From NCBI GenBank assembly GCA_944989445.1, contig CALYLW010000744.1:237858-301857 (forward strand): a stretch of DNA of 64,000 bases, written 5' to 3'. This DNA is from Ampullaceana balthica (Eukaryota > Mollusca > Gastropoda > Lymnaeidae). Of the stretch, positions 8,712 to 64,000 are shown in pieces. The translations under genes were made by a program, and so were the position numbers. A model generated the notes under the pieces. The model ran no database searches. It saw only the letters and a program-made list of their open reading frames with translations, and was not told the origin of the DNA. Numbering within the stretch: position 1 is the first letter of the stretch; each line of letters begins with the position of its first letter.

Positions 8712-8816
8712 ATATGTTGCCTTGCCACATGGGGCAACACTCTTGTGTCATCTGGTGCTGACAAGTCTATTCACTTTTGGAATGTGGACACATGTGAGCA
8801 GAAGTCAACCATAGAG
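8712..8816 (+). CDS. TRAF7-like: TRAF7-like exon a
   Basis: Thirty-five codons in phase 0, after the acceptor CTCCCATCTCAG and before the donor GAG/GTAATT. It encodes a WD40 blade with LVSSGADKSIHFWNVDTCEQ. Its last six bases, ATAGAG, and the donor are part of every unit of the following 39-bp array. Confidence 0.88.
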
Positions 8817-11800
8817 GTAATTAAGTGATAGCTACACCAGACATTAGCTGTAGAAGTAATTAAGTGATAGCTACACCAGACATTAGCTATAGAGATAATT
8901 AAGTGATGAATACACCAGACATTACCTGCAGAGGTAATTAAGTGATAGCTACACCAGACATTACCTGTAGAGATAATTAAGTGATGAATACACCAGATAT
9001 TATCTGTAGAGGTAATTAAGTGATAGCTACACCAGACATTACCTGTAGAGGTAATTAAGTGATAGCTACACCAGACATTACCTGTAGAGGTAATTAAGTG
9101 ATGGCTACACCAGACAATGGCTATAGAGGTAATTAAGTGATGGCTACACCAGACATTGGCTATAGAGGTAATTAAGTGATTGCTACACCAGACATTAGCT
9201 GTAGAAGTAATTAAGTGATAGCTACACCAGACATTAGCTATAGAGGTAATTAAGTGATGGCTACACCAGACATTAGCTATAGAGGTAATTAAGTGATAGC
9301 TACACCAGACATTAGCTATAGAGGTAATTAAGTGATAGCTACACCAGACATTAGCTATAGAGGTAATTAAGTGATGACTACACCAGACATTAGCTGTAGA
9401 GGTAATTAAGTGATAGCTACACCAGACATTAGCTATAGAGGTAATTAAGTGATAGCTACACCAGACATTAGCTATAGAGGTAATTAAGTGATAGCTACAC
9501 CAGACATTAGCTATAGAGGTAATTAAGTGATAGCTACACCAGACATTAGCTATAGAGTTAATTAAGTGATAGCTACACCAGACATTAGCTATAGAGGTAA
9601 TTAAGTGATAGCTACACCAGACATTACCTGTAGAGGTAATTAAGTGATAGCTACACCAGACATTAGCTGTAGAGGTAATTAAATGATATCTACACCAGAC
9701 ATTAGCTGTAGAAGTAATTAAGTGATAGCTACACCAGACATTAGCTATAGAGGTAATTAAGTGATAGCTACACCAGACATTACCTGTAGAGGTAATTAAG
9801 TGATGGCTACACCAGACATTACCTGTAGAGGTAATTAAGTGATAGCTACACCAGACATTAGCTATAGATGTAATTAAGTGATGGCTACACCAGACATTAG
9901 CTATAGATGTAATTAAGTGATGGCTACACCAGACATTAGCTGTAAAGGTAATTAAGTGATAGCTACACCAGACATTAGCTATAGAGGTAATTAAGTGATA
10001 GCTACACCAGACATTACCTGTAGAGGTAATTAAGTGATAGCTACACCAGACATTAGCTATAGAGGTAATTAAGTGCTGGCTACACCAGACATTAGCTATA
10101 GAGGTAATTAAGTGATGGCTACACCAGACATTAGCTATAGAGGTAATTAAGTGATGGCTACACCAGACATTAGCTATAGAGTTAATTAAGTGATAGCTAC
10201 ACCAGACATTAGCTATAGAGGTAATTAAGTGATAGCTACACCAGACATTAGCTATAGAGTTAATTAAGTGATAGCTACACCAGACATTAGCTATAGAGGT
10301 AATTAAGTGACAGCTACACCAGACATTACCTGTAGAGGTAATTAAGTGATAGCTACACCAGACATTAGCTGTAGAGGTAATTAAATGATATCTACACCAG
10401 ACATTAGCTGTAGAAGTAATTAAGTGATAGCTACACCAGACATTAGCTATAGAGGTAATTGAGTGATAGCTACACCAGACATTACCTGTAGAGGTAATTA
10501 AGTGATGGCTACAACAGACATTAGCTATAGAGGTAATTAAGTGATAGCTACACCAGACATTAGCTATAGAGGTAATTAAGTGATGGCTACACCAGACATT
10601 AGCTATAGATGTAATTAAGTGATGGCTACACCAGACATTAGCTGTAAAGGTAATTAAGTGATAGCTACACCAGACATTAGCTGTAGAGGTAATTAAATGA
10701 TATCTACACCAGACATTAGCTGTAGAAGTAATTAAGTGATAGCTACACCAGACATTAGCTATAGAGGTAATTGAGTGATAGCTACACCAGACATTACCTG
10801 TAGAGGTAATTAAGTGATGGCTACAACAGACATTAGCTATAGAGGTAATTAAGTGATAGCTACACCAGACATTAGCTATAGAGGTAATTAAGTGATGGCT
10901 ACACCAGACATTAGCTATAGATGTAATTAAGTGATGGCTACACCAGACATTAGCTGTAAAGGTAATTAAGTGATAGCTACCCCAGACATTAGCTATAGAG
11001 GTAATTAAGTGATAGCTACACCAGACATTACCTGTAGAGGTAATTAAGTGATAGCTACACCAGACATTAGCTATAGAGGTAATTAAGTGATGGCTACACC
11101 AGACATTAGCTATAGATGTAATTAAGTGATAGCTACACCAGACATTAGCTATAGAGGTAATTGAGTGATAGCTACACCAGACATTACCTGTAGAGGTAAT
11201 TAAGTGATGGCTACAACAGACATTACCTGTAGAGGTAATTAAGTGATAGCTACACCAGACATTAGCTATAGAGGTAATTAAGTGATAGCTACACCAGACA
11301 TTAGCTATAGAGGTAATTAAGTGATAGCTACACCAGACATTACCTGTAGAGGTAATTAAGTGATAGCTACACCAGACATTAGCTGTAGAGGTAATTAAGT
11401 GATAGCTACACCAGACATTGGCTTTATAGGATGATAAAATATTATTATTATTATTATTAGTTAAAAGTCTATGATTATTTTAGAGGATATGCTTTCATTT
11501 TGTTAAATCAATTATCTTTGTTACAATAAGATTTCTGTTAAATCAATTATCTTTGTTACAATAAGATTTCTGTTAAATCAATTATCTTTGTTACAATAAG
11601 ATTTCTGTTAAATCAATTATCTTTGTTACAATAAGATTTCTGTTTATTTAGTGCAGTGTTTTAATTTGTCTGTAGGCTGCCCATGGTGACATAGTTTGTG
11701 CAATGGTTATTCATGATAACTGGTTGTTTACTTCATCATTTTCTCTCATTAAGGTAAGGCTAATAATGTCAACTTGGTGAATTCCAACAAATTAAATGGT

Positions 11801-14800
11801 AATAAATCATAGAACAAGACCTGACAGTCATGTGTAAAAACTGTAGACAAAATTTAGAAAACTTGTGAAGCTAAAATAAAAGCAGGGCATATGATTTAGG
11901 TAATCATAAGCGTTTTACTTTTGTCAAATTTGATCAATATTTTGTGTTTGTACAATTTCCTTTTTATTTCTATATGACATGGAGGTATGGGACTTAAGTC
12001 ATTTATTTCTATATGACATGTTGTAGGTATGGGACTTAAGTCATTTATTTCTATATGACATGTTGTAGGTATAGGACTTAAAGTCATTTATTTCTATATG
12101 ACATGTAGGTATGGGACTTAAAGTCATTTATTTCTATATGACATGTTGTAGGTATGGGACTTAAGTCGTTTATTTCTATATGACATGTTGTAGGTATGGG
12201 ACTTAAGTCATTTATTTCTATATGACATGTTGTAGGTATGGGACTTAAAGTCATTTATTTCTATATGACATGGAGTTATGGGACTTAAAGTCATTTATTT
12301 CTATATGACATGTAGGTATGGGACTTAAGTCATTTATTTCTATATGACATGTTGTAGGTATGGGACTTAAAGTCATTTATTTCTATATGACATGGAGTTA
12401 TGGGACTTAAAGTCATTTATTTCTATATGACATGTAGGTATGGGACTTAAGTCATTTATTTCTATATGACATGTTGTAGGTATGGGACTTAAGTCATTTA
12501 TTTCTATATGACATGTAGGTATGGGACTTAAAGTCATTTATTTCTATATGACGTGGAGGTATGGGACTTAAAGTCATTTATTTCTATATGACATGTAGGT
12601 ATGGGACTTAAAGTCATTTATTTCTATATGACATGTAGGTATGGGACTTAAAGTCATTTATTTCTATATGACATGGAGTTAAGGGACTTAAAGTCATTTA
12701 TTTCTATATGACATGTAGGTATGGGACTTAATTCATTTATTTCTATATGACATGTTGTAGGTATGGGACTTAAGTCATTTATTTCTATATGACATGTAGG
12801 TATGGGACTTAAAGTCATTTATTTCTATATGACATGTAGGTATGGGACTTAAAGTCATTTATTTCTATATGACATGTAGGTATGGGACTTAAAGTCATTT
12901 ATTTCTATATGACATGGAGTTATGGGACTTAATGTCATTTATTTCTATATGACATGTAGGTATGGGACTTAAAGTCATTTATTTCTATATGACAAGGAGG
13001 TATGGGACTTAAAGTCATTTATTTCAATATGACATGTAGGTATGGGACTTAAAGTCCTTGACATTGAAAGCCACTCTGACTGGCATCAAACATTGGGTTA
13101 GAGCTTTGGCCCTGGGTCATAATAAAGTAAGTCTGTAAGCAAATTTTTTTTAGTTAATTGCTAGTTTGTTAATAAATTTAAATGTCTTAACAATTTTAGC
13201 ATAAGCAGTATGATAATTTAAGCATTATAACAATTTAAGTAGGGCTGTTAATGATTAATTTAAATTTAATCGTTAACTTTTGTAAAATTAAAGATTACTT
13301 AATCGTTAATTTCGATTAAAGCCAAAATTGAAATGTATGGTGTCGTAAGTAACATTCATTAAACGTATTTGTTGAAAAAAAATCGAAATAACACTAGAAT
13401 GTCTTCTTTATATGACATCTTTTAACCAACATGCAAACAGACAAGTGTATTGACATTATTTGGTTCAAGTGATGAGCGGGTCTTATTGACAATATAACCA
13501 GCCGAGCTGAACAATCGTTCACATAGCTTTAGATTGTCTCAGCTGAAGTTTCTGATACTGTAGTGGATGTTTGGTTTGCAGGTAATATGTAAGCGAAGTG
13601 TTAGAACCTTGGTAGCATTGTTCCCTTTAAGCAGCATGATTGCGCAGATATTTGACCGACGCCACGCAGGAGTTTAGAATAACCGCACAGCAATTTGGTA
13701 AAATATTGCACAAAAATGGACGTTGTGCAACTTTGCCCATGAGTTTTTTTTTAACTTTACACACAGACCAACGAAGCTTAGACTTACAGGGAACATTGCT
13801 TGGTAGGCAAACGATTTCTTTCAATGGACACAATAACCTTTATCAACATTTTGAACATTCACGTCAGTCAATAGTTTAAAACCAAAATGTTTGTGTAACC
13901 ATCCGGAAATTAGTTTATATTTATCAGCCGAAATATTTTACTTTTTGACTTCAAGTACATTTATAAGTGGTGAGTCGATTAATCGTTTAAAAAAAATTAA
14001 TAGTTAAAAATTTGAACGATTAATCTAGAAATTAATCGTTAATTTCCGCAGCCCTAAATTTAAGCATTATAACAATTTAAGTATTATAATCATTTAAGCA
14101 TTATAACAATTTAAGTATTATAATAATTTAAGCATTATAACAATTTAAGCATTATAATAATTTAAGTATTATAATAATTTAAGCATTATAACAATTTAAG
14201 CATTATAACAATTTAAGCATTATAACAATTTAAGCATTATAACAATTTAAGCAGTATAATAATTTAAGCATTATAACAATTTAAGCATTATAACAATTTA
14301 AGCATTATAACAATTTAAGCATTATAATTATAACAATTTAAGCATTATTCCAGAGCGGTGTTCTTCTGCCAACTTTGTTCTATTATTATCATAAAAATGA
14401 TATTTTATATTTTGGAGTTTCAAAAAAGAATTGTGCTATTGTTATTCTTTGAATAGCCACTACACTAACTATTGTTATCCTTTGAATAGCCACTACACTA
14501 ACTATTGTTATCCTTTGAATAGCCACTACGCTAACTATTGTTATCCTTTCAATATCCACTACACTAACTATTCTTATCTTATCTGTTTACAGACGCTCAT
14601 TCTATACAGAAGATTATTGCGTCCTATGCTTATCTATGGTTTGTGTTTAGTCCTGCATTTTTATTAGAGATTTAAATGCTGATAAAGTGTTGGTTTTCCT
14701 GGATTCTTCAGGCAACCCATTCCACGCCCGAATTCCGGACGGGAAGAAGGAAAACTTGTATGTGTTTGTTCTTGCATACGGAATAAGAAAGGTGTTTTTA

Positions 14801-17800
14801 TCCTTATGTCTTTCTGAGGGTTGTATTAAGTTATCTTTGTGTTGTATTTCTAAATTAGAATTAATTGCTTTATGTATGATTACTACTTTGCTTTTGGTTC
14901 TTCTATCCTCTAGTGTTTCAAGGTTTAATGATTTAACTAATGGTGTTATTCTTGTCAGTTTCGAATATTCTCCAGTAATGAATCTGGCAGCTCTTTTTTG
15001 AATTTGTTCTAGTTTATCAATGTTTTCTTTGGTGGATGGGTCCCATACAGAAGATGCATATTCTAGTACAGGTCTCACCAAAGTGAGGTAGCATTTTAGT
15101 TTTATATCTCTATTACATTTGTTAAAGTTTCTTTTTATAAAGCCTAAGGTTTTGTTTGATTTTTTAATAACTTCATTGACATGGGGATTCCATGATAGTT
15201 TCTCATTTATTAAGACTCCTAAGTATTTTGCATCTTTAGTTTGGGTCAGTTCTTTTCCATGAATGTAATATTTTGAATTTATTTGTTTCTTTTTCTTTGT
15301 TACTCTTAACAGTTGACACTTTTCTGGGTGGAAAGACATACTCCAGTTAGTTTCCCATTTTATCAATTCATCTAAGTCTTTTTGTAAAATTTTGCTGTCT
15401 TGTTCTGATTTAATTGTTCTATAGATTATACAATCATCAGCAAATAACCTAACTTTTGTACCTGTTGAGATGTTGTTGGGTAAATCATTTATATAAATTT
15501 AAAAAAGTAAGGGACCTAGCACAGTTCCTTGTGGAACTCCTGAGTTAACCTTTATTGGTGCAGATTTAGATCCATTAATTATTACAGTTTGCTCCCTGCC
15601 CAAAAGGAAGTCTTGGATCCAGTGATGTAAGGAACCTGAGATTCCAAAGTAGTTAAGTTTTTTAAGTAAACTAAGGTGGTGAACTTTGTTAAATGCTTTT
15701 GAGAAGTCTAGTAATATTGTATCTATTTGATCATTTTTGTCTAAGCCTTTTGATAGTTCATCTATTAAACCTATTAATTGTGTGTTCACATGATCTGTTT
15801 TTTCTAAAGCTGTGTTGATGTGGGCATAGGGCATTATATTTGTCAAGGTGGTTAACTATTCTACTATATATTATGTGTTCTAGTAATTTACAGGTGATAC
15901 TAGTATGTGATACAGGCCTGTAATTACCAGGGTCTGATTTATCCCCTTTCTTAAAGAGTGGAGTTACGTTAGCTAATTTCCAATCCTGGGGCACTTTACC
16001 CTGGTTTAGAGAGGCTTGAAAGAGAACTACCAGGATTGGGGACAGTTCATTGCTTAGTTCTTTTAATAACCTTGCAGGCAAATCATCTGGGCCAGTAGCT
16101 TTGTTTATTTTAAAGTTTTTTAGGAGTGAATGTATACCTATCTCATCTACAATTATGTTACCTATTTCCGCCATTTTATTTAAATTTATTAAAACTTCCT
16201 TGTCGCCTTAGGCAGAAAAAGATGATGCAAAATATGTGTTAAGGATATTAGCTTTAGTTTCATTATCATTATAGGTTTTATTATTTGAGCCTTTTAGTGT
16301 GGCTATTCCTGAAAGGTTCCATTTTTTTAGATTTGATAAAGGACCATAAGTTTTTATTGTTATCTTTGGTAATTACATTGTTTATATATTCATTTTGGAG
16401 GTTTCGACTAAGTTTTTGTGTCAAGTGTTTAATCTTTAAGTATTTTTTGTGTATTCTATATGAATAGGTAGCTTTATATTTCTTAAATAAGTTCTCTTTT
16501 TGTTTGCATAGCTTTTTCAATCTAGAATTGAACCAGCATTTGTTAATTTTATTTGATGTTAGTTTTGTTGGAACATACTCATCCATTATAGTTTTTAGAT
16601 TTGTTTTTATATCTTTCCAAATTTCTTCTACTGGGCTATTTGTGTTAACTTTACTTAGGAAAGTTTGTTGGAAGTTAGCCGCTGATTGGTGTAGTTTTAT
16701 TGAATTACATTTATTCCAAAGATATATTATTCTTCTAGGTATCTTATTAATTTTAGTTTTTATTGTATTGGTGACCCTAACAATATCATGGTCGGAGAGT
16801 CCTGGAATTATTTTATAGTCTAACACTAGTCCTGGTCTATTTGTTAGGAATAAATCCAGTGTTTTATTTTTCCTTGTTATGCTTTCAATATCCACTACAC
16901 CAACTATTGTTATCCTTTCAATATCCACTATACCAACTATTGTTATCCTTTCAATATCCACTACACCAACTACTGATGATAACTTCCGGTTGTTCAAAAT
17001 GGCGAAACCTAAATTTCTCTGCTGTCATTAAAAGACAAAAATAATCAAGCGCTGGAGAAATATACAACATACAAATGCAAATTAAGGAAATTAAAGTTAT
17101 CAAGGAACTGATCTTCGAAATGAATTCCTTCTATGCTCGTCTGGTTGTATTTTACTTGGTTTTGTCATTTTGTGGCTGTTAATACTATTAATATTAATCC
17201 GGAAGTTGTCTCACAGCTCTCACCAGTGGCTCATAGAAACTGCAACGTGCGCAGTAGCCACACCCCGGGCAACGGCTTCGACTGGCTTGCTAAACCTGGT
17301 GAGGGTAGCCGACGGGTCTCAAACCCTCGGTGATCTAGATATGTCTATCTATGCACGTGAAGACTGGATTCGGTGGACAGAGCGGAGGAACCACTAGTTG
17401 GTCAACGGTCAAAAAGGCGAATCTCAGCAAAGCGTTGTGGAACGCTAAGGGCATGACAAGACACACAGGACATCATGGCCATCCACTGCACCCGTTTCCA
17501 TCACCAGCCGTCTCGACTTAGTCCTGCCGCTGGATAAGATGGCCTCGGGCGAGAGAGTGAGATCGACGAATTGCGCAACTCCTTCTCACTTAAATCCAAA
17601 TCACCGCGCAAGTCACTTTTGTCATCCATCCCATACCAGCGGTCTACAACCCTCGGATGACTAGAGTGGTCCTCGTCGTATCGACGGACGAACGAACACA
17701 CCAACTATTGTTATCCTTTCAATATCCACTACACCAACTATTGTTATCCTTTCAATATCCACTGCACCAACTATTGTTATCCTTTCAATATCCACTGCAC

Positions 17801-20800
17801 CAACTATTATAATATCCTTTCAATATCCACTACACCAACTATTTTTATCCTTTCAATATCCACTACACCAACTATTGTTATCCTTTCAATATCCACTACA
17901 CCAACTATTGTTATCCTTTCAATATCCACTACACCAACTATTGTTATCCTTTCAATATCCACTACACCAACTATTGTTATCCTTTCAATATCCACTGCAC
18001 CAACTATTATAATATCCTTTCAATATCCACTACACCAACTATTTTTATCCTTTCAATATCCACTACACCAACTATTATAATATCCTTTCAATATCCACTA
18101 CACCAACTGTTTTTATCCTTTCAATATCCACTACACCAACTATTGTTATCCTTTCAATATCCACTACACCAACTATTGTTATCCTTTCAATATCCACTAC
18201 ACCAACTATTGTTATCCTTACAATATCCACTACACCAACTATTGTTATCCTTTCAATATCCACTACACCAACTATTGCTATCCTTTCAATAGCCACTACA
18301 CCAACTAGTGTTATCCTTTCAATAGCCACTACACCAACTATTGTTATCATTTCAATAGCCACTACACCAACTATTGTTATCATTTCAATAGCCACTACAC
18401 CAACTATTGTTATCCTTTCAATATCCACTACACCAACTATTGTTATCCTTTCAATAGCCACTACACCAACTATTGTTATCCTTTCAATAGCCACTACACC
18501 AACTATTGTTATCCTTTCAATAGCCACTACACCAACTATTGTTATCATTTCAATAGCCACTACACCAGACCAGTGTTAAGAAACGCTCGTAGTTACTTCT
18601 ATTGTTACCTATTACTTTTTTTGTTTCTCATATTTTTTTGAACATAATGAATTTTATAGAAGTGGAGTAATAATAATATAATAGTATTCATGATCATAAT
18701 GTTTTATTAATGTAGTTTTAAAGAAGCAACATTTTCTTAGAAAATCAACTTTACATTGGCTCTCTCATAAAAAAATCAACATTTATAAATAAATCAACTT
18801 TACATTGGCTCCCTCATAACAAATCAACATTTATAAATAAATCAACTTTACAGTGACTCTCAATTACAAAACCCACCTGTTTACAGGACAAGCTTTACAG
18901 TGGTTCTCACAATGCCATCAATGTTTGGGAGACAAGAGAAGAGTTTGAGAAGCTTGCAACAATTGAACACGAGTGTGGATCAGTGTACTCCCTGGCAGTC
19001 AATAAAACCTACATTATAGCAGGTAACTCAGGTAAAACAATACTCCAAGGTCAAGGTCTTCTTTATGTTTGGAAAATGTTTTATACAAATACATTGATTA
19101 CATACAGACAAAATGAAGACATGATGAAAAAAAGATGTCTACAAAATTTGGTTTATTTTTTAGCTATAAGAATTTTGTTGAAGGAGAAATGGGGAATGAA
19201 TATGGTAGTTATCACTATTTGTATCACTATTTGTATCACTATTAGTATCACTATTTGTATCACTATTTGTATCACTATTTGTATTCCTTGTGGAGTAATG
19301 GGGAATGAATATGGTAGTTATAGCTATTTGTATCACTATTTGTATCACTATTTGTATCACTATTTGTATCACTATTATGTATCACTATTTGTATCACTAT
19401 TTGTTTCACTATTAGTGCCACTATTTGTGTCACTATTTGTGTCACTATTAGTGTCACTATTAGTGTCACTATTAGTGTCACTATTTGTGTCACTATTAGT
19501 GTCACTATTTGTATTACTATTTGTATCACTATTTGTATCACTATTTGTATTCCTTGTGGAGTAATGGGGAATGAATATGGTAGTTATCACTATTTGTATC
19601 ACTATTTGTATTATAGTTAGTATCACTATTTGTATCACTATTAGTATCACTATTTGTATCACTATTAGTATCACTATTTGTATCACTATTTGTATCACTA
19701 TTTGTATCACTATTTGTATCACTTTTGTATTCCTTGTGGTTGCTCTCTGATGTTCAAAAACTCTCTCAAATAAAATAAGTCTTCATATATTTGTCTTTGT
19801 GGTGACACTTGTTCTAAAGAGCGCAGGCCGAGACACTTTCTCCTGAGTCCATAGTGGTGACACTTGTTCTAAAGAGCGCAGGCCGAGACACTTTCTCCTG
19901 AGTCCATCCAATCGAAGAACTTTCAGAAGGGATTGTGTAGAAGAATGCAGGCCCTGCTAGAGATAAATGTTCCGATGTTAATTCCTTCAAGGGGCCATCC
20001 ATATATTACGTACGCACAAAATTCGTATTTTTGTACCCCCTCCCCCCGTTGCATCCCGTACATTTTCGTGACCCCTCCCCTAAATGTACGTACAAATTCT
20101 CTCAACTTTTTTTGAAATTTTTTTTTAAAGTCAGAAGATATTGGTTTTACTCTTTGAAGTCGTCCATAAATGACGTCACACGCCTAAAAAGGGGGAGGGG
20201 GTCACGCATTTGTGACGAGGGGGAGGGGGTGTTTAAGAAATGTGATGTCACATCTAAATGCGCACAAAAATATTTTAAAATGCGGCTTTTTTTGTGTGTG
20301 TGTGGGAGGGGGCTCAAAGCTTTGGGGCCGCCCATTAATGACGTCCCGTGATTATGGCAGATTTTTCATCCCCCCCCCCATCGTCACTAAAAGTTAGACA
20401 CACCCCCCCTCTTTTCCAATATTACGTCACAAAAATGCCCCTTACCCCCAAAAAAACATTTTTTAATTTGAAAATTAGCATGTTTCAAATCACTTTTTTG
20501 TCGTTTAAGTATATATTTAGTGTTAGGCTGCACTTTAATATCGTAACACGTGCGAAGCCCAAGTAAAACGTCATTAAATAAATTGTAAACAAACAAATAT
20601 TTAAGTACAACTTTTATTTTTAGTTATGCGTTTTGATGTGAAGTGACATTTCTTAAACTACCCCTCCCCTTCGTCACAAATGGTCGACCCCCTCCCCCCT
20701 CTATGTGCGTAACGTCATTTACGTCCCTAAATGACATCACGCGATTTTGGCAGATTTTTCACTCCCCCTTAATCACGCGTCGTCACAAAAACTTAGACAA

Positions 20801-28660: not shown

Positions 28661-28664
28661 TTTT

Positions 28665-31690: not shown

Positions 31691-31947
31691 CAACTCTTAT
31701 GCAACAACCCACTTTTGTATAGGAAGGCGTATGTATTACATGTATCTATGTTTTTTGTCTAGTGAGATATTCTAAAATAAATCGATAATTATGAATTCGT
31801 AATCCTTCTAATTAAATGGAAAAAATGTTCTGCCCTATGCCGTTTTTTCTACCCTATGCCGTTTTTCCCCCTCTTCTTTTAGAAAACGGTAAACCACTTG
31901 TTTGTGTCCACCCCTTATGACAATCACCACATCTCCGTCACTGATAA

Positions 31948-32356
31948 GGGGCCGTCCATAAATGACGTCACGCGATGTTGGCCAAATTTACACCTCCTCC
32001 CCTCTCGTCACAAAAAGTTAAACCCCCCTCAAATATGCCGTCACAAAAATGTGCGCCCCCCCCCCTAAAAGCCATATTTTCCATTTGAAAAAGAGCATGT
32101 TTCAAATCACTTTTTTTTTGTCATTTAAGTGTGCATTTATTAGTGTTAGGTTGGACTCTAATATCGTCACACGTGTGAAGCCATTTGTAATTAAGTAAAT
32201 TGTAAGCAATCAAATATTTCAGTGGAACTTTTATTTAAAGTTGTGCGTTTTGATGTGACGTTACATTTCTTTAACAGTCCCCTCCCCTTCGTCACACATC
32301 GTCACAAATGTGTGAACCCCTCCCCTAAGTGCGTGACGTCATTTATGGACGGCCCC
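31948..32356. mobile_element. Harbinger-type MITE, 409 bp, complete
   Basis: Both ends carry a perfect 26-bp inverted repeat starting GGGGCCGTCCATAAATGACG, flanked by TAA on both sides (31945-31947 and 32357-32359), the 3-bp target duplication of PIF/Harbinger elements. The interior has C-runs and TGACGT motifs in mirror arrangement and no coding capacity. It is the best-preserved member of a family with fragments near 7490, 20156, 33130 and 33650. Confidence 0.9.
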
Positions 32357-47262: not shown

Positions 47263-47329
47263 GGCCTTAACTGACATCTATGCACACCATGAACTACTGT
47301 TCTATCCTACACAAAATCCTTAAGGTACA

Positions 47330-50300: not shown

Positions 50301-53300
50301 ATATAAATGAGTTGATAATTGTTTGTTTCTCTCAGGGAGTGCTAGATGTTACAGTTATATAAATGAGTTGATAATTGTTTGTTTCTCTCAGGGAGTGCTA
50401 GATGTTACAGTTATATAAATGAGTTGATAATTGTTTGTTTCTCTCAGGGAGTGCTAGATGTTACAGTTATATAAATGAGTTGATAATTGTTTGTTTCTCT
50501 CAGGGAGTGCTAGATGTTACAGTTATATAAATGAGTTGATAATTGTTTGTTTCTCTCAGGGAGTGCTAGATGTTACAGTTATATAAATGAGTTGATAATT
50601 GTTTGTTTCTCTCAGGGAGTGCTAGATGTTACAGTTATATAAATGAGTTGATAATTGTTTGTTTCTCTCAGGGAGTGCTAGATGTTACAGTTATATAAAT
50701 GAGTTGATAATTGTTTGTTTCTCTCAGGGAGTGCTAGATGTTACAGTTATATAAATGAGTTGATAATTGTTTGTTTCTCTCAGGGAGTGCTAGATGTTAC
50801 AGTTATATAAATGAGTTGATAATTGTTTGTTTCTCTCAGGGAGTGCTAGATGTTACAGTTATATAAATGAGTTGATAATTGTTTGTTTCTCTCAGGGAGT
50901 GTTAGATGTTACAGTTATATAAATGAGTTGATAATTGTTTGTTTCTCTCAGGGAGTGCTAGATGTTACAGTTATATAAATGAGTTGATAATTGTTTGTTT
51001 CTCTCAGGGAGTGTTAGATGTTACAGTTATATAAATGAGTTGATAATTGTTTGTTTCTCTCAGGGAGTGCTAGATGTTACAGTTATATAAATGAGTTGAT
51101 AATTGTTTGTTTCTCTCAGGGAGTGTTAGATGTTACAGTTATATAAATGAGTTGATAATTGTTTGTCTCTCTCAGGGAGTGCTAGATGTTACAGTTATAT
51201 AAATGAGTTGATAATTGTTTGTTTCTCTCAGGGAGTGCTAGATGTTACAGTTATATAAATGAGTTGATAATTGTTTGTTTCTCTCAGGGAGTGCTAGATG
51301 TTACAGTTATATAAATGAGTTGATAATTGTTTGTTTCTCTCAGGGAGTGCTAGATGTTACAGTTATATAAATGAGTTGATAATTGTTTGTTTCTCTCAGG
51401 GAGTGCTAGATGTTACAGTTATATAAATGAGTTGATAATTGTTTGTTTCTCTCAGGGAGTGCTAGATGTTACAGTTATATAAATGAGTTGATAATTGTTT
51501 GTTTCTCTCAGGGAGTGCTAGATGTTACAGTTATATAAATGAGTTGATAATTGTTTGTTTCTCTCAGGGAGTGCTAGATGTTACAGTTATATAAATGAGT
51601 TGATAATTGTTTGTTTCTCTCAGGGAGTGCTAGATGTTACAGTTATATAAATGAGTTGATAATTGTTTGTTTCTCTCAGGGAGTGCTAGATGTTACAGTT
51701 ATATAAATGAGTTGATAATTGTTTGTTTCTCTCAGGGAGTGCTAGATGTTACAGTTATATAAATGAGTTGATAATTGTTTGTTTCTCTCAGGGAGTGCTA
51801 GATGTTACAGTTATATAAATGAGTTGATAATTGTTTGTTTCTCTCAGGGAGTGCTAGATGTTACAGTTATATAAATGAGTTGATAATTGTTTGTTTCTCT
51901 CAGGGAGTGCTAGATGTTACAGTTATATAAATGAGTTGATAATTGTTTGTTTCTCTCAGGGAGTGCTAGATGTTACAGTTATATAAATGAGTTGATAATT
52001 GTTTGTTTCTCTCAGGGAGTGCTAGATGTTACAGTTATATAAATGAGTTGATAATTGTTTGTTTCTCTCAGGGAGTGCTAGATGTTACAGTTATATAAAT
52101 GAGTTGATAATTGTTTGTTTCTCTCAGGGAGTGCTAGATGTTACAGTTATATAAATGAGTTGATAATTGTTTGTTTCTCTCAGGGAGTGCTAGATGTTAC
52201 AGTTATATAAATGAGTTGATAATTGTTTGTTTCTCTCAGGGAGTGCTAGATGTTACAGTTATATAAATGAGTTGATAATTGTTTGTTTCTCTCAGGGAGT
52301 GCTAGATGTTACAGTTATATAAATGAGTTGATAATTGTTTGTTTCTCTCAGGGAGTGCTAGATGTTACAGTTATATAAATGAGTTGATAATTGTTTGTTT
52401 CTCTCAGGGAGTGCTAGATGTTACAGTTATATAAATGAGTTGATAATTGTTTGTTTCTCTCAGGGAGTGTTAGATGTTACAGTTATATAAATGAGTTGAT
52501 AATTGTTTGTCTCTCTCAGGGAGTGCTAGATGTTACAGTTATATAAATGAGTTGATAATTGTTTGTTTCTCTCAGGGAGTGTTAGATGTTACAGTTATAT
52601 AAATGAGTTGATAATTGTTTGTCTCTCTCAGGGAGTGCTAGATGTTACAGTTATATAAATGAGTTGATAATTGTTTGTTTCTCTCAGGGAGTGCTAGATG
52701 TTACAGTTATATAAATGAGTTGATAATTGTTTGTTTCTCTCAGGGAGTGCTAGATGTTACAGTTATATAAATGAGTTGATAATTGTTTGTTTCTCTCAGG
52801 GAGTGTTAGATGTTACAGTTATATAAATGAGTTGATAATTGTTTGTTTCTCTCAGGGAGTGCTAGATGTTACAGTTATATAAATGAGTTGATAATTGTTT
52901 GTTTCTCTCAGGGAGTGCTAGATGTTACAGTTATATAAATGAGTTGATAATTGTTTGTCTCTCTCAGGGAGTGCTAGATGTTACAGTTATATAAATGAGT
53001 TGATAATTGTTTGTTTCTCTCAGGGAGTGCTAGATGTTACAGTTATATAAATGAGTTGATAATTGTTTGTTTCTCTCAGGGAGTGCTAGATGTTACAGTT
53101 ATATAAATGAGTTGATAATTGTTTGTTTCTCTCAGGGAGTGTTAGATGTTACAGTTATATAAATGAGTTGATAATTGTTTGTTTCTCTCAGGGAGTGTTA
53201 GATGTTACAGTTATATAAATGAGTTGATAATTGTTTGTCTCTCTCAGGGAGTGCTAGATGTTACAGTTATATAAATGAGTTGATAATTGTTTGTTTCTCT

Positions 53301-56300
53301 CAGGGAGTGCTAGATGTTACAGTTATATAAATGAGTTGATAATTGTTTGTTTCTCTCAGGGAGTGCTAGATGTTACAGTTATATAAATGAGTTGATAATT
53401 GTTTGTCTCTCTCAGGGAGTGCTAGATGTTACAGTTATATAAATGAGTTGATAATTGTTTGTTTCTCTCAGGGAGTGCTAGATGTTACAGTTATATAAAT
53501 GAGTTGATAATTGTTTGTTTCTCTCAGGGAGTGCTAGATGTTACAGTTATATAAATGAGTTGATAATTGTTTGTTTCTCTCAGGGAGTGCTAGATGTTAC
53601 AGTTATATAAATGAGTTGATAATTGTTTGTTTCTCTCAGGGAGTGCTAGATGTTACAGTTATATAAATGAGTTGATAATTGTTTGTTTCTCTCAGGGAGT
53701 GCTAGATGTTACAGTTATATAAATGAGTTGATAATTGTTTGTTTCTCTCAGGGAGTGCTAGATGTTACAGTTATATAAATGAGTTGATAATTGTTTGTTT
53801 CTCTCAGGGAGTGCTAGATGTTACAGTTATATAAATGAGTTGATAATTGTTTGTTTCTCTCAGGGAGTGCTAGATGTTACAGTTATATAAATGAGTTGAT
53901 AATTGTTTGTTTCTCTCAGGGAGTGCTAGATGTTACAGTTATATAAATGAGTTGATAATTGTTTGTTTCTCTCAGGGAGTGCTAGATGTTACAGTTATAT
54001 AAATGAGTTGATAATTGTTTGTTTCTCTCAGGGAGTGCTAGATGTTACAGTTATATAAATGAGTTGATAATTGTTTGTTTCTCTCAGGGAGTGCTAGATG
54101 TTACAGTTATATAAATGAGTTGATAATTGTTTGTTTCTCTCAGGGAGTGCTAGATGTTACAGTTATATAAATGAGTTGATAATTGTTTGTTTCTCTCAGG
54201 GAGTGCTAGATGTTACAGTTATATAAATGAGTTGATAATTGTTTGTTTCTCTCAGGGAGTGCTAGATGTTACAGTTATATAAATGAGTTGATAATTGTTT
54301 GTTTCTCTCAGGGAGTGCTAGATGTTACAGTTATATAAATGAGTTGATAATTGTTTGTTTCTCTCAGGGAGTGCTAGATGTTACAGTTATATAAATGAGT
54401 TGATAATTGTTTGTTTCTCTCAGGGAGTGCTAGATGTTACAGTTATATAAATGAGTTGATAATTGTTTGTTTCTCTCAGGGAGTGCTAGATGTTACAGTT
54501 ATATAAATGAGTTGATAATTGTTTGTCTCTCTCAGGGAGTGCTAGATGTTACAGTTATATAAATGAGTTGATAATTGTTTGTTTCTCTCAGGGAGTGCTA
54601 GATGTTACAGTTATATAAATGAGTTGATAATTGTTTGTTTCTCTCAGGGAGTGCTAGATGTTACAGTTATATAAATGAGTTGATAATTGTTTGTTTCTCT
54701 CAGGGAGTGCTAGATGTTACAGTTATATAAATGAGTTGATAATTGTTTGTTTCTCTCAGGGAGTGCTAGATGTTACAGTTATATAAATGAGTTGATAATT
54801 GTTTGTCTCTCTCAGGGAGTGCTAGATGTTACAGTTATATAAATGAGTTGATAATTGTTTGTTTCTCTCAGGGAGTGCTAGATGTTACAGTTATATAAAT
54901 GAGTTGATAATTGTTTGTTTCTCTCAGGGAGTGCTAGATGTTACAGTTATATAAATGAGTTGATAATTGTTTGTTTCTCTCAGGGAGTGCTAGATGTTAC
55001 AGTTATATAAATGAGTTGATAATTGTTTGTTTCTCTCAGGGAGTGCTAGATGTTACAGTTATATAAATGAGTTGATAATTGTTTGTTTCTCTCAGGGAGT
55101 GCTAGATGTTACAGTTATATAAATGAGTTGATAATTGTTTGTTTCTCTCAGGGAGTGCTAGATGTTACAGTTATATAAATGAGTTGATAATTGTTTGTCT
55201 CTCTCAGGGAGTGCTAGATGTTACAGTTATATAAATGAGTTGATAATTGTTTGTTTCTCTCAGGGAGTGCTAGATGTTACAGTTATATAAATGAGTTGAT
55301 AATTGTTTGTTTCTCTCAGGGAGTGCTAGATGTTACAGTTATATAAATGAGTTGATAATTGTTTGTTTCTCTCAGGGAGTGCTAGATGTTACAGTTATAT
55401 AAATGAGTTGATAATTGTTTGTTTCTCTCAGGGAGTGCTAGATGTTACAGTTATATAAATGAGTTGATAATTGTTTGTTTCTCTCAGGGAGTGCTAGATG
55501 TTACAGTTATATAAATGAGTTGATAATTGTTTGTTTCTCTCAGGGAGTGCTAGATGTTACAGTTATATAAATGAGTTGATAATTGTTTGTTTCTCTCAGG
55601 GAGTGCTAGATGTTACAGTTATATAAATGAGTTGATAATTGTTTGTTTCTCTCAGGGAGTGCTAGATGTTACAGTTATATAAATGAGTTGATAATTGTTT
55701 GTTTCTCTCAGGGAGTGCTAGATGTTACAGTTATATAAATGAGTTGATAATTGTTTGTTTCTCTCAGGGAGTGCTAGATGTTACAGTTATATAAATGAGT
55801 TGATAATTGTTTGTTTCTCTCAGGGAGTGCTAGATGTTACAGTTATATAAATGAGTTGATAATTGTTTGTTTCTCTCAGGGAGTGCTAGATGTTACAGTT
55901 ATATAAATGAGTTGATAATTGTTTGTCTCTCTCAGGGAGTGCTAGATGTTACAGTTATATAAATGAGTTGATAATTGTTTGTTTCTCTCAGGGAGTGTTA
56001 GATGTTACAGTTATATAAATGAGTTGATAATTGTTTGTTTCTCTCAGGGAGTGCTAGATGTTACAGTTATATAAATGAGTTGATAATTGTTTGTTTCTCT
56101 CAGGGAGTGCTAGATGTTACAGTTATATAAATGAGTTGATAATTGTTTGTTTCTCTCAGGGAGTGCTAGATGTTACAGTTATATAAATGAGTTGATAATT
56201 GTTTGTTTCTCTCAGGGAGTGCTAGATGTTACAGTTATATAAATGAGTTGATAATTGTTTGTTTCTCTCAGGGAGTGCTAGATGTTACAGTTATATAAAT

Positions 56301-59300
56301 GAGTTGATAATTGTTTGTTTCTCTCAGGGAGTGCTAGATGTTACAGTTATATAAATGAGTTGATAATTGTTTGTTTCTCTCAGGGAGTGCTAGATGTTAC
56401 AGTTATATAAATGAGTTGATAATTGTTTGTTTCTCTCAGGGAGTGCTAGATGTTACAGTTATATAAATGAGTTGATAATTGTTTGTTTCTCTCAGGGAGT
56501 GCTAGATGTTACAGTTATATAAATGAGTTGATAATTGTTTGTTTCTCTCAGGGAGTGCTAGATGTTACAGTTATATAAATGAGTTGATAATTGTTTGTTT
56601 CTCTCAGGGAGTGCTAGATGTTACAGTTATATAAATGAGTTGATAATTGTTTGTCTCTCTCAGGGAGTGCTAGATGTTACAGTTATATAAATGAGTTGAT
56701 AATTGTTTGTTTCTCTCAGGGAGTGCTAGATGTTACAGTTATATAAATGAGTTGATAATTGTTTGTTTCTCTCAGGGAGTGCTAGATGTTACAGTTATAT
56801 AAATGAGTTGATAATTGTTTGTTTCTCTCAGGGAGTGCTAGATGTTACAGTTATATAAATGAGTTGATAATTGTTTGTTTCTCTCAGGGAGTGCTAGATG
56901 TTACAGTTATATAAATGAGTTGATAATTGTTTGTTTCTCTCAGGGAGTGCTAGATGTTACAGTTATATAAATGAGTTGATAATTGTTTGTTTCTCTCAGG
57001 GAGTGCTAGATGTTACAGTTATATAAATGAGTTGATAATTGTTTGTCTCTCTCAGGGAGTGCTAGATGTTACAGTTATATAAATGAGTTGATAATTGTTT
57101 GTTTCTCTCAGGGAGTGCTAGATGTTACAGTTATATAAATGAGTTGATAATTGTTTGTTTCTCTCAGGGAGTGCTAGATGTTACAGTTATATAAATGAGT
57201 TGATAATTGTTTGTTTCTCTCAGGGAGTGCTAGATGTTACAGTTATATAAATGAGTTGATAATTGTTTGTTTCTCTCAGGGAGTGCTAGATGTTACAGTT
57301 ATATAAATGAGTTGATAATTGTTTGTCTCTCTCAGGGAGTGCTAGATGTTACAGTTATATAAATGAGTTGATAATTGTTTGTTTCTCTCAGGGAGTGCTA
57401 GATGTTACAGTTATATAAATGAGTTGATAATTGTTTGTTTCTCTCAGGGAGTGCTAGATGTTACAGTTATATAAATGAGTTGATAATTGTTTGTTTCTCT
57501 CAGGGAGTGCTAGATGTTACAGTTATATAAATGAGTTGATAATTGTTTGTTTCTCTCAGGGAGTGCTAGATGTTACAGTTATATAAATGAGTTGATAATT
57601 GTTTGTTTCTCTCAGGGAGTGCTAGATGTTACAGTTATATAAATGAGTTGATAATTGTTTGTTTCTCTCAGGGAGTGCTAGATGTTACAGTTATATAAAT
57701 GAGTTGATAATTGTTTGTTTCTCTCAGGGAGTGCTAGATGTTACAGTTATATAAATGAGTTGATAATTGTTTGTTTCTCTCAGGGAGTGCTAGATGTTAC
57801 AGTTATATAAATGAGTTGATAATTGTTTGTTTCTCTCAGGGAGTGCTAGATGTTACAGTTATATAAATGAGTTGATAATTGTTTGTTTCTCTCAGGGAGT
57901 GCTAGATGTTACAGTTATATAAATGAGTTGATAATTGTTTGTTTCTCTCAGGGAGTGCTAGATGTTACAGTTATATAAATGAGTTGATAATTGTTTGTTT
58001 CTCTCAGGGAGTGCTAGATGTTACAGTTATATAAATGAGTTGATAATTGTTTGTTTCTCTCAGGGAGTGCTAGATGTTACAGTTATATAAATGAGTTGAT
58101 AATTGTTTGTTTCTCTCAGGGAGTGCTAGATGTTACAGTTATATAAATGAGTTGATAATTGTTTGTTTCTCTCAGGGAGTGCTAGATGTTACAGTTATAT
58201 AAATGAGTTGATAATTGTTTGTTTCTCTCAGGGAGTGCTAGATGTTACAGTTATATAAATGAGTTGATAATTGTTTGTTTCTCTCAGGGAGTGCTAGATG
58301 TTACAGTTATATAAATGAGTTGATAATTGTTTGTCTCTCTCAGGGAGTGCTAGATGTTACAGTTATATAAATGAGTTGATAATTGTTTGTTTCTCTCAGG
58401 GAGTGCTAGATGTTACAGTTATATAAATGAGTTGATAATTGTTTGTTTCTCTCAGGGAGTGCTAGATGTTACAGTTATATAAATGAGTTGATAATTGTTT
58501 GTTTCTCTCAGGGAGTGCTAGATGTTACAGTTATATAAATGAGTTGATAATTGTTTGTTTCTCTCAGGGAGTGCTAGATGTTACAGTTATATAAATGAGT
58601 TGATAATTGTTTGTTTCTCTCAGGGAGTGCTAGATGTTACAGTTATATAAATGAGTTGATAATTGTTTGTTTCTCTCAGGGAGTGCTAGATGTTACAGTT
58701 ATATAAATGAGTTGATAATTGTTTGTTTCTCTCAGGGAGTGCTAGATGTTACAGTTATATAAATGAGTTGATAATTGTTTGTTTCTCTCAGGGAGTGCTA
58801 GATGTTACAGTTATATAAATGAGTTGATAATTGTTTGTTTCTCTCAGGGAGTGCTAGATGTTACAGTTATATAAATGAGTTGATAATTGTTTGTTTCTCT
58901 CAGGGAGTGCTAGATGTTACAGTTATATAAATGAGTTGATAATTGTTTGTTTCTCTCAGGGAGTGCTAGATGTTACAGTTATATAAATGAGTTGATAATT
59001 GTTTGTTTCTCTCAGGGAGTGCTAGATGTTACAGTTATATAAATGAGTTGATAATTGTTTGTTTCTCTCAGGGAGTGCTAGATGTTACAGTTATATAAAT
59101 GAGTTGATAATTGTTTGTTTCTCTCAGGGAGTGCTAGATGTTACAGTTATATAAATGAGTTGATAATTGTTTGTTTCTCTCAGGGAGTGCTAGATGTTAC
59201 AGTTATATAAATGAGTTGATAATTGTTTGTTTCTCTCAGGGAGTGCTAGATGTTACAGTTATATAAATGAGTTGATAATTGTTTGTTTCTCTCAGGGAGT

Positions 59301-61890
59301 GCTAGATGTTACAGTTATATAAATGAGTTGATAATTGTTTGTTTCTCTCAGGGAGTGCTAGATGTTACAGTTATATAAATGAGTTGATAATTGTTTGTTT
59401 CTCTCAGGGAGTGCTAGATGTTACAGTTATATAAATGAGTTGATAATTGTTTGTTTCTCTCAGGGAGTGCTAGATGTTACAGTTATATAAATGAGTTGAT
59501 AATTGTTTGTTTCTCTCAGGGAGTGCTAGATGTTACAGTTATATAAATGAGTTGATAATTGTTTGTTTCTCTCAGGGAGTGCTAGATGTTACAGTTATAT
59601 AAATGAGTTGATAATTGTTTGTTTCTCTCAGGGAGTGCTAGATGTTACAGTTATATAAATGAGTTGATAATTGTTTGTTTCTCTCAGGGAGTGCTAGATG
59701 TTACAGTTATATAAATGAGTTGATAATTGTTTGTTTCTCTCAGGGAGTGCTAGATGTTACAGTTATATAAATGAGTTGATAATTGTTTGTTTCTCTCAGG
59801 GAGTGCTAGATGTTACAGTTATATAAATGAGTTGATAATTGTTTGTTTCTCTCAGGGAGTGCTAGATGTTACAGTTATATAAATGAGTTGATAATTGTTT
59901 GTTTCTCTCAGGGAGTGCTAGATGTTACAGTTATATAAATGAGTTGATAATTGTTTGTTTCTCTCAGGGAGTGTTAGATGTTACAGTTATATAAATGAGT
60001 TGATAATTGTTTGTTTCTCTCAGGGAGTGCTAGATGTTACAGTTATATAAATGAGTTGATAATTGTTTGTTTCTCTCAGGGAGTGCTAGATGTTACAGTT
60101 ATATAAATGAGTTGATAATTGTTTGTTTCTCTCAGGGAGTGCTAGATGTTACAGTTATATAAATGAGTTGATAATTGTTTGTTTCTCTCAGGGAGTGCTA
60201 GATGTTACAGTTATATAAATGAGTTGATAATTGTTTGTTTCTCTCAGGGAGTGCTAGATGTTACAGTTATATAAATGAGTTGATAATTGTTTGTTTCTCT
60301 CAGGGAGTGCTAGATGTTACAGTTATATAAATGAGTTGATAATTGTTTGTTTCTCTCAGGGAGTGCTAGATGTTACAGTTATATAAATGAGTTGATAATT
60401 GTTTGTTTCTCTCAGGGAGTGCTAGATGTTACAGTTATATAAATGAGTTGATAATTGTTTGTTTCTCTCAGGGAGTGCTAGATGTTACAGTTATATAAAT
60501 GAGTTGATAATTGTTTGTTTCTCTCAGGGAGTGCTAGATGTTACAGTTATATAAATGAGTTGATAATTGTTTGTTTCTCTCAGGGAGTGCTAGATGTTAC
60601 AGTTATATAAATGAGTTGATAATTGTTTGTTTCTCTCAGGGAGTGCTAGATGTTACAGTTATATAAATGAGTTGATAATTGTTTGTTTCTCTCAGGGAGT
60701 GCTAGATGTTACAGTTATATAAATGAGTTGATAATTGTTTGTTTCTCTCAGGGAGTGCTAGATGTTACAGTTATATAAATGAGTTGATAATTGTTTGTTT
60801 CTCTCAGGGAGTGCTAGATGTTACAGTTATATAAATGAGTTGATAATTGTTTGTTTCTCTCAGGGAGTGCTAGATGTTACAGTTATATAAATGAGTTGAT
60901 AATTGTTTGTTTCTCTCAGGGAGTGCTAGATGTTACAGTTATATAAATGAGTTGATAATTGTTTGTTTCTCTCAGGGAGTGCTAGATGTTACAGTTATAT
61001 AAATGAGTTGATAATTGTTTGTTTCTCTCAGGGAGTGCTAGATGTTACAGTTATATAAATGAGTTGATAATTGTTTGTTTCTCTCAGGGAGTGTTAGATG
61101 TTACAGTTATATAAATGAGTTGATAATTGTTTGTTTCTCTCAGGGAGTGTTAGATGTTACAGTTATATAAATGAGTTGATAATTGTTTGTTTCTCTCAGG
61201 GAGTGCTAGATGTTACAGTTATATAAATGAGTTGATAATTGTTTGTTTCTCTCAGGGAGTGCTAGATGTTACAGTTATATAAATGAGTTGATAATTGTTT
61301 GTTTCTCTCAGGGAGTGCTAGATGTTACAGTTATATAAATGAGTTGATAATTGTTTGTTTCTCTCAGGGAGTGCTAGATGTTACAGTTATATAAATGAGT
61401 TGATAATTGTTTGTTTCTCTCAGGGAGTGCTAGATGTTACAGTTATATAAATGAGTTGATAATTGTTTGTTTCTCTCAGGGAGTGCTAGATGTTACAGTT
61501 ATATAAATGAGTTGATAATTGTTTGTTTCTCTCAGGGAGTGCTAGATGTTACAGTTATATAAATGAGTTGATAATTGTTTGTTTCTCTCAGGGAGTGCTA
61601 GATGTTACAGTTATATAAATGAGTTGATAATTGTTTGTTTCTCTCAGGGAGTGCTAGATGTTACAGTTATATAAATGAGTTGATAATTGTTTGTTTCTCT
61701 CAGGGAGTGCTAGATGTTACAGTTATATAAATGAGTTGATAATTGTTTGTTTCTCTCAGGGAGTGCTAGATGTTACAGTTATATAAATGAGTTGATAATT
61801 GTTTGTTTCTCTCAGGGGAGTGCTAGATGTTACAGTTATATAAATGAGTTGATAATTGTTTGTTTCTCTCAGGGAGTGTTAGATGTTACA
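47330..61890 (+). repeat. Acceptor-anchored giant minisatellite, 56-bp unit, about 260 copies
   Basis: The unit is GGAGTGCTAGATGTTACAGT followed by TATATAAATGAGTTGATAAT and TGTTTGTTTCTCTCAG, with a strict 56-bp period. It contains a strong acceptor (TTTGTTTCTCTCAG). The bases after it encode GVLDVT, which continues the exon 10 reading frame into the seventh FG-GAP loop (DLMEN-GVLD; DGILDIV in vertebrates). The unit therefore holds the intron 10 end and exon 11 start of ITFG1. Variation is tiny: GTGTTAG for GTGCTAG and GTCTCTCTC for GTTTCTCTC. Confidence 0.97.
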
Positions 61891-64000
61891 GTTTATAAAT
61901 GAGTTGATAAATTGTTTGTTTCTCTCAGGGAGTGTTATGTTCAGTTATAAAATTGATAATTGTTTGTCTCTCAGGGGTTAGATGTTACAGTTTATATAAA
62001 TGAGTTGATAATTGTTTGTTTCTCTCAGGGAGTGCTAGATGTTACAGTTATATAAATGAGTTGATAATTGTTTGTTTCTCTCAGGGAGTGCTAGATGTTA
62101 CAGTTATATAAATGAGTTGCATAATCTGTTTTGTTTCGTCCTCGAAGGAGTGTTAGAATGTACAAAGATTTTATACTAAATGTAGATTTGATAAAAATAC
62201 TAAAATTTGTTTGTACTCCAACCGTCAGGGAGTGCTAAGTAACAGTTAATTAGAAATGAGTTGATATATTTGTTTTGTTAGCTCTCAAGGAGTGATAGAA
62301 TTACACGTCTTTGCATATAATAAAAATGATGACATAATTGTTTGTTTCTCTCAGTGGGAGTGCTTAGATGTACACAGTTATCCAATAAATGCGTGTTGAT
62401 AATTGTATGGGGGGTTAGCTCTCCATGGAGTGTTAGATTTACAGTTCATACATTAAATGAGTTATAATTCGTTTGTCTCTCACATCTTTCATCAGGGGTA
62501 CAAGTGTTAAGATTTACAGGATAAATAAATGAAGTTGATAATTGTTTGTTTTATCACCTCTCATCTCAGGTGAGTAGCTAGAATGATACAAGTTAGATAA
62601 ATGAGTTTGATTAATATGTCTTGTTTTCTCTCTTCGAAGGAGTGCTAGATGTACACGTTAATTAATAAATGAGTACAACTTGATAAATTGTTTGTTTACT
62701 CAACACAAGGAGATAGAAGAGTGGCTAGAAGTTACAGGTTTTATAATAAATGAGTTGATAAATGTATGTCTAGTCTCAAGGGAGTGCACAGATTTTACAG
62801 TTAAATATGTCATAGAAAATATCTCGATAGATTTGAATTAATGTTTGTTTCCTCTCAGGGAAGTGTTAAGGCAGGAAGGATTTTTTATAAAATTGTTACA
62901 AGTTAATAATATAATATGAAAGGCTTATCTTGTTGATAATCTACAAAATTGTTATTCTTTGTTCATTGCTACTCAACAGGAGAAGGTTAATGTTACAGTT
63001 ATAAATAAATTTAGATGATAATTGTATTGTCTCTCTCTATGGCGATTATGTTACCGTTAGAACAATAATACTCATGTAAGTTGATCAAATGTTTGTTTTT
63101 CAATCCATCATGGAGTGCTATATGTTACGAGTTAACAAAAAAAAAAAAAATTAGTAAAGAAATCACAAAGATACTTTGAACCCATTTGTTGCACTCAGGG
63201 AGTGTTAGATTTACTGTTATATAAATGAGGATTGATAGAGTTGACATTTTTTCTCTCTACATCAGGGAGTTGCTCAAGATGTAACAGGTTTAAAATTAAA
63301 AAAATAATTGAAAGTTTTGATAATTGTTTGTCTCTCTCAGTGATTGTTAAAGTTATGTTAACAGTTAAATAAAAGAGCTTGATTAATGTTTGTTTCTCTC
63401 AGGGAGTGGCCAGAGTGTTACAGTTAAATAAATGATTTGATAATTGAATATTTTACTCCCAGCGGAGTGTGCTAGAGTGATACAATTGTTAATATAAAAA
63501 GCTATAAAAATCCACACTTGATACGATAACAAACCAATAGATTGTTTTTTGATCCTAACTCTCATTGGAGTGCTAAGATCGTTCAGTTAATTATAACATG
63601 AGTTGATTAATTGTTTGTCTTCAAAATACCTCCTACCTTCTCTTATCTCTTTCTATTCTTTCTCTCTTTTCTCCTACTGCCATCTCTACTCTCTCTCACT
63701 GTGACTCAGGGAGTTGCTTAGATGTTTACAAGTTATCTTGATAAATAAGTTATAATTGTTTGTTTCTTCTCTCAGGGAGTGCTAGATGTTACAGTTTAGA
63801 AATATAAATGATGTTTCATAAAGATTGTTTGTTTTTCTCTCAGAGGGAGTCTACGATTAATATGAGTTTCTACACATTATATAAATGCCAAGTTGATAAT
63901 ACAATGTTTGTCAATCATCTTCAGGGAGTCTCAAGATGTTACAGGTTATATAAATGAGTTGTTAATTGTTTGTTTTTCTTTCCTCTCAGGGAGTGCTAGA
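61890..64000 (+). repeat. Disordered end of the 56-bp array
   Basis: The same unit continues with many small insertions and deletions, beginning with an extra G near 61817 and rising steeply after 62115. Recognisable pieces (GGAGTG, TTACAGTT, AAATGAGTTG, TTGTTTCTCTCAG) stay roughly in register to the window end. A CT-rich stretch at 63630-63700 is foreign to the unit. The final bases again read CTCTCAGGGAGTGCTAGA. Unpolished assembly is likely; true decay is possible. Confidence 0.85.

Follow-up and report, generated by a model that had tools for sequence, protein, structure and literature searches.

Minisatellites straddling predicted exon edges in the gastropod Ampullaceana balthica: a recurrent mirage-like class with an excess in dynein genes

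Introduction

So-called "mirage" minisatellites, in which the repeat unit spans an exon-intron boundary, were reportedly first described in the amphioxus gene Adh3. Here we analyse arrays of the same build in a 64,000-nucleotide stretch of the freshwater gastropod Ampullaceana balthica (Mollusca, Lymnaeidae; GenBank assembly GCA_944989445.1, contig CALYLW010000744.1, positions 237,858 to 301,857 of the forward strand), hereafter the window, which carries exons of a TRAF7-like WD40 gene and of an ITFG1-like FG-GAP gene, and in dynein and kinesin loci sampled from the same genome. According to later reports, amphioxus mirages occur in the globin genes BflGb6 and BflGb9 (PMC3087553) and have been noted for PGBD5, Adh and troponin C (PMC3902484). 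The units of Adh3 are given as 10-72 bp long and those of the globins as 150-160 bp, and reverse-transcription polymerase chain reaction suggests that splicing is normal despite the mirages (PMC3087553). Splice-site-straddling minisatellites are therefore not new as a class, since those of amphioxus precede them; in open-access literature no further use of "mirage" in this sense was found in titles and the beginnings of abstracts.

The arrays described here resemble the amphioxus ones in that the unit spans the exon-intron boundary (seven arrays in the window, one of them putative; 13 in dyneins plus six at outer edges; two plus three in kinesins, with at least 4 exon bases) and in that both 5' and 3' boundaries are involved. 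Copy number of amphioxus mirages varies between alleles or somatically; here one donor carries six copies in one dynein locus (L031) and one copy in another (L032), and these two loci may be alleles or recent paralogues. What sets the present case apart is an array of about 264 copies and the use of a placement null on two gene families. Branchiostoma has a G+C content of about 41%. The genome studied here measures 1.1 Gb, and its dynein and kinesin loci have a G+C content of 0.35; the two haplotypes of B. lanceolatum are given as 468 and 466 Mb.

Ordinary intronic minisatellites share with these arrays the unit size, the head-to-tail order and a copy-number difference between near-identical copies, whereas the units described here include from a few to about 40 coding bases together with a functional splice site. 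Earthworm metallothionein genes combine intronic minisatellites with exon duplications that are missing from transcripts (PMC12783039). Intron gain through tandem duplication of a sequence containing AG/GT (the slash marks the exon-intron junction throughout) is known as the Rogers model (Gao and Lynch 2009, as cited in PMC3087553). It likewise involves tandem duplication that copies splice signals within genes, but here the additional sites remain as decoys in an existing intron.

Our reading, held with moderate confidence, is that these are mirage minisatellites: in a genome rich in minisatellites, a local tandem duplication including the exon edge was amplified and tolerated, with an unexplained two- to fourfold edge bias in dyneins. 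As read from predicted gene structures, the evidence consists of units that straddle the edge, decoy sites that remain intact, a pair of loci differing in situ by one copy against six, the involvement of several gene families, and the dynein excess. The class is real, recurrent and known in kind; what is new is how often it occurs in the genes sampled, together with the placement tests and a single very long array.

Arrays on exon edges of the window

Tandem Repeats Finder (TRF) returned 54 rows for the window, of which 44 were retained (nested rows omitted) and merged into 36 arrays, 33 of them beyond position 8712; the row at 62429-62570, the tail of a 56-bp array, was dropped. A preliminary description of this DNA had claimed 33 exon edges, and 33 were counted when the putative acceptor of ITFG1-like exon 11 was included. 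All exon edges, in the window and in the sampled loci, are predictions from sequence, and all features below lie on the + strand.

In the TRAF7-like gene, five arrays overlap predicted edges. The donor of exon a carries a 39-bp unit in 67 copies (8811-11430; ATAGAG/GTAATT..., 6 exon bases), with GT intact in 61/66 decoys, and the acceptor of exon c a 40-bp unit in 27 copies (11963-13056; 17 exon bases), with AG intact in 26/26. At exon e the donor lies in a 60-bp array of six copies (23827-24191; 18 exon bases; GT intact in 5/5 decoys), while exon f has arrays on both sides: eight copies of 39 bp at its acceptor (26546-26861; 5 exon bases; AG intact in 7/7 decoys) and three of 33 bp at its donor (26958-27057; 18-19 exon bases; GT intact in 1/2 decoys). 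The sixth array, two copies of 51 bp at the acceptor of ITFG1-like exon 6 (39891-39991), includes only 4 exon bases. Overlap in these six ranges from 4 to 19 exon bases, and is only 4-6 bases in three of them. The seventh is a 56-bp unit (47326-62137) in about 264 copies, a number that may differ from the true one, since from 62138 to 64000 the array decays into noisy, indel-rich copies that run to the contig end and resemble unpolished long-read sequence. Its putative exon 11 acceptor (CTCTCAG/GGAGTGCTAGATGT) was placed from the reading phase only (...MEN/GVLDVT), and the real exon would lie outside the contig, which stops at the final base of the window; AG is intact in 260/260 chained copies, and Pfam gave no support for an exon 11 start in the unit. 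Of the seven edge-crossing arrays claimed earlier, six thus overlap predicted edges and the seventh stands by inference; together they involve three donors and four acceptors (exon 11 counted). The units of edge-crossing arrays in this genome measure 19-93 bp.

Two arrays that had been put forward as weaker cases do not cross: the 48-bp array at 18742-18861 stops 25 bp before the acceptor of exon d, and the 49-bp array at 40986-41165 stops 32 bp before that of ITFG1-like exon 9. Neither was accepted as an eroded mirage. The likeness between unit and exon was at shuffle level for exon d (13% of 60 shuffles were as good), and the top exon match of the other unit was a different exon. An interior 33-mer (14436-14578) compared with exon b in antisense beat all 60 shuffles and was judged a chance match, about 30 units having been tested. 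These two arrays and those at 37104-38698 and 11497-11644 all stop 25-33 bp ahead of an acceptor, as if growth had reached the region of the branch point and pyrimidine tract.

For the placement test, each array was collapsed to one unit and the units were placed at random, with score cut-offs that retain all seven arrays. Mobile-element DNA was delimited by eye in two versions, one generous and made ahead of self-BLAST, the other confident (9.2 kb) and made afterwards. With all DNA as placement space, 7 crossings were observed against 1.0-1.6 expected (p 0.00005-0.0009); the expectation was 2.1-2.9 (p 0.003-0.018) after confident and 3.7-4.1 (p 0.06-0.10) after generous removal. Placement within the own intron, the exon 11 acceptor omitted, gave 6 observed against 2.7-2.8 expected (p 0.03-0.04); once elements were taken out, the expectation rose to 3.6-3.7 (p 0.11-0.13). 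Requiring at least 6 exon bases left 5 crossings (p 0.004-0.01 with all DNA, 0.04-0.11 with confident and 0.26-0.33 with generous removal), and 4 against 2.6-3.5 expected in own-intron placement (p 0.24-0.47). The earlier figure of less than one crossing by chance was too low, as 1.0 to 4.1 are expected depending on the null. By itself the window is marginal and an excess is not proven there, which is why the same genome was sampled at other loci.

Dynein loci of the same genome

Loci were picked from the 1,097,344,711-bp assembly by exon position only. A search with the dynein AAA_6 hidden Markov model (HMM) gave 127 exon matches, of which 124, lying in 25 stretches, were taken. An intron counted as solved if its donor was GT or GC and its acceptor AG, the frame stayed open, and the junction agreed with the HMM gap; this was achieved for 78/82 introns in the first 20 stretches and for 13/17 in the other five, and 80 exact fits (160 edges) were used. 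Arrays had a TRF score of 100 or more, and the null was re-placement within their own intron in 200,000 draws. The first 20 stretches were tested first, and once their result was in the other five were included, followed by the kinesins and, after the kinesin result, by a test of outer edges.

In the first 20 stretches 10/18 arrays crossed an edge, against 2.2-2.4 expected. With at least 6 exon bases, 13/29 arrays crossed in all 25 stretches (nine at donors, four at acceptors) against 3.45 expected, a count that 0/200,000 draws reached (p<1e-5); with at least 12 exon bases there were 10 against 2.57 (p 0.00005). At outer edges, identified by a simple splice-site score, 6/15 arrays crossed against 2.1 expected (p 0.0065).

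The excess lies at the edge itself. Real edges were crossed in 13/160 cases (8.1%), while pseudo-edges placed 25, 50, 75 and 100 bp inside the intron were crossed in 5/160, 5/156, 4/146 and 4/126, and those at 125, 150, 200, 250 and 300 bp in 2/106, 2/88, 3/60, 0/40 and 0/34. This amounts to 2-3% from 25 to 150 bp and 5.0%, on only 3/60, at 200 bp; one array may cross several pseudo-edges, so that these counts are not independent. General crowding of arrays near edges was rejected as an explanation, as non-crossing dynein arrays lie only slightly nearer than expected, with 7/16 within 50 bp against 3.8 expected at score 100 (p 0.048) and 8/28 against 5.5 at score 50 (p 0.15), and no such crowding was seen in the window. 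High G+C was rejected as a cause too: interior units have about 0.34 and introns 0.30 (first 20 stretches, estimated by hand).

That the dynein excess is confined to the edge and gone 25 bp inside would fit splice sites being duplication hot spots, at which germ-line transcription and splicing (R-loops, paused polymerase) cause breaks or slippage. Strong transcription of axonemal dyneins in testis counts in the same direction. On the other hand, G/C skew in 2-kb windows over the arrays takes both signs, and one of the only two families sampled shows no excess; we regard this account as unlikely.

One 3.3-kb dynein intron (L036:557-1544 and 1662-3821, sense) consists almost entirely of array, with a donor mirage of a 30-mer in 33 copies and an 18-mer in 120 copies. 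A match between L036 and L039 was considered as a sign of related genes and dismissed, as it is a single dispersed repeat.

Decoy splice sites

In 21 arrays GT or AG is retained in 273/294 non-functional copies, and in all 260 of the 56-mer, in line with amphioxus, where AG and GT are kept in many repeats. Divergence in these arrays is 0.041 at the splice columns and 0.034 over all columns. The decoys are neither purged nor protected, as expected if cross-exon splicing takes the copy on the exon side. The proposal made earlier, that arrays are tolerated through the true site always staying on the exon side, fits best, with most decoys intact and changing at a rate near that of other columns. 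Splicing thus probably ignores decoys that lack an exon behind them, judging by the predicted structures. No new intron or exon derived from a duplicate was found, the fitted frames using the exon-side copies; this was judged from sequence, and minor splicing is possible.

Origin of the arrays

Evidence on how an array begins comes from L031 and L032, near-identical stretches (92.6%) that agree at 729/750 coding positions over five exons; in two introns, about 92% and 96% of aligned positions are the same. One donor sets them apart: a 73-bp unit, made up of 30 exon and 43 intron bases, is present there six times in L031 and once in L032, and TTT stands at both ends of the duplicated segment. 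The reverse is seen as well: a 40-mer that L031 has once is repeated about ten times where L032 begins. The comparison shows that tandem change took place in situ, in the genomic DNA of these loci, and the single copy at the donor is probably the older state. L032 lies on a 60-kb contig and may therefore be an uncollapsed allele.

In 19/27 arrays, 0-6 nucleotides remain once the whole copies are taken off, a count made with no control set and including one array cut by the stretch end; such remainders are compatible with short microhomology at the array ends. Exon sequence makes up between 5 and 39 bases of the unit in 21 arrays, and in view of this spread the idea of a fixed motif bounding the duplications was rejected.

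Under the mirage reading, a local DNA segment spanning an exon edge would duplicate in tandem, and the duplicate would then amplify like any minisatellite. The copy facing the exon would remain the functional splice site, and the others would become intronic decoys, complete in sequence and with no exon behind them, which exon definition should skip and which should drift neutrally.

RNA-templated repair had been among the causes first suggested. Spliced or partly spliced RNA, or lariats, would then have been copied back at the edges. The units, however, are contiguous exon-intron DNA, and in L031, set against L032, a genomic segment of 73 bp has simply been duplicated in situ; no supporting evidence was found in this analysis, and we consider such an origin highly improbable.

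Edges could also stand out through retention, if duplications were born everywhere and exon-anchored arrays lasted longer or escaped the deletions and insertions of intron interiors. The mobile elements inside several intronic arrays of the window speak for it, as interior arrays do get broken up; but crossing and interior arrays are alike in copy identity by eye, and arrays of two copies cross edges too (L027, L035, L061). This account is, likewise, unlikely. We infer that exon edges are places of more frequent birth or survival of duplications; a dedicated process at splice sites may exist, with support in dyneins only.

Kinesin loci and points against the reading

Several points weigh against the mirage reading with an edge bias. 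The first is the kinesin sample (61/127 exon matches fetched, 20 stretches, 22 introns solved exactly), in which no excess was found at solved edges: 2/8 arrays crossed with at least 4 exon bases (1.35 expected) and 1/8 with at least 6 (1.25 expected), and at outer edges 3/10 did so against 3.3 expected. Secondly, the excess in the window shrinks after removal of mobile elements. Furthermore, the dynein count includes both L031 and L032, which could be paralogues instead of alleles, and its stretches are therefore not fully independent. As for microhomology, 8/27 arrays have no remainder of 0-6 nucleotides, and the remainders lack a control set. Finally, the exon edges are predictions.

Real kinesin edges were crossed in 1/44 cases and pseudo-edges 25-200 bp inside in 1-2 of 28-42, and kinesin crossers (e.g., L055 and L056) occur at the rate set by the general abundance of arrays, eight arrays giving little power. 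Dyneins and kinesins pooled give 15/37 against 5.1 expected (p 2e-5), a result driven by the dyneins. These data bear on the possibility that no edge-specific process exists, minisatellites being born uniformly in non-coding DNA, abounding in this genome and in some cases covering edges by chance. The kinesins match chance, the window is at or near chance under strict nulls, and breakpoints have no fixed place relative to the splice site, all of which favour uniform birth; against it stand the dyneins, with 13 crossings where 3.5 are expected and with real edges crossed more often than pseudo-edges. On balance we find uniform birth somewhat unlikely.

For the preliminary description, this means that crossing more often than chance holds in dyneins and fails in kinesins, the window itself being marginal. 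Its view of a recurring class rather than a single event is borne out, since several dynein genes and a few kinesin genes have the same structure at their donors and acceptors.

Window genes and mobile elements

The joined exons of the WD40 gene encode 233 amino acids, open through every junction (WD40 match, E 1.1e-23): exons a (8712-8816), b (11676-11753), c (13040-13126), d (18887-19022), e (23696-23844), f (26857-26976) and g with the stop codon (27269-27295). Upstream on the same contig lie two further exons, one with a RING match that passes the cut-off and one that is zf-TRAF-like at 25.6 bits (Pfam cut-off 27), which makes TRAF7-like a reasonable label. An upstream TRAF7-like exon also has a 63-bp unit in 2.1 copies at the apparent donor ATAAGAA/GTAAAG (L010:9918 to L009:50; C744:227775-227907).

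The ITFG1-like gene (exons 1-10, 32612-42159) yields 415 amino acids, again open through every junction (FG-GAP_3 match, E 4.9e-17), from exons 1-5 at 32612-32807, 35764-35994, 36498-36555, 38732-38803 and 39022-39140 and exons 6-10 at 39988-40046, 40385-40466, 40813-40901, 41198-41388 and 42012-42159. Exon 8 has a GC donor (40901-40902, AATAAG/GCAAGG). A search of the PDB found no relative of this protein, and the name ITFG1 is that of the preliminary description, with no database match confirming it.

Three mobile elements lie inside minisatellite arrays of a 17-mer and a 33-mer (13236-14056, 14579-16873, 16973-17697): the first has hAT-like ends with AATTTAAG on either side, another is a long interspersed nuclear element (LINE) with reverse transcriptase, and the last is a short dispersed element. 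Being nested, they indicate that those arrays are older than the elements. The reverse-transcriptase piece of the LINE had no relative in prokaryote and viral collections. A 49-mer array is cut in two (4299-4802, 7927-8658) by about 3.1 kb of element-like DNA, which opens with two tandem repeats of 72% similarity, and a dispersed repeat family with GTCCATAAATGACGTC-like ends has copies at 20161-21107, 31946-32345 and 7497-7863.

Implications

If exon edges were germ-line hot spots of tandem duplication tied to transcription and splicing, up to about 8% of splice sites in some gene classes would carry arrays of intact decoys, with the spliceosome routinely choosing among up to 260 near-identical sites; we consider this broader proposal fairly unlikely. 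Natural arrays of near-identical splice sites would in any case allow the study, with no engineering, of how the right site gets chosen, by exon definition or by first-come splicing. Many independent births may help to study the beginnings of tandem duplication and any contribution of decoys to intron gain, and mirages, known from a few genes, would come closer to being a trait countable genome-wide.

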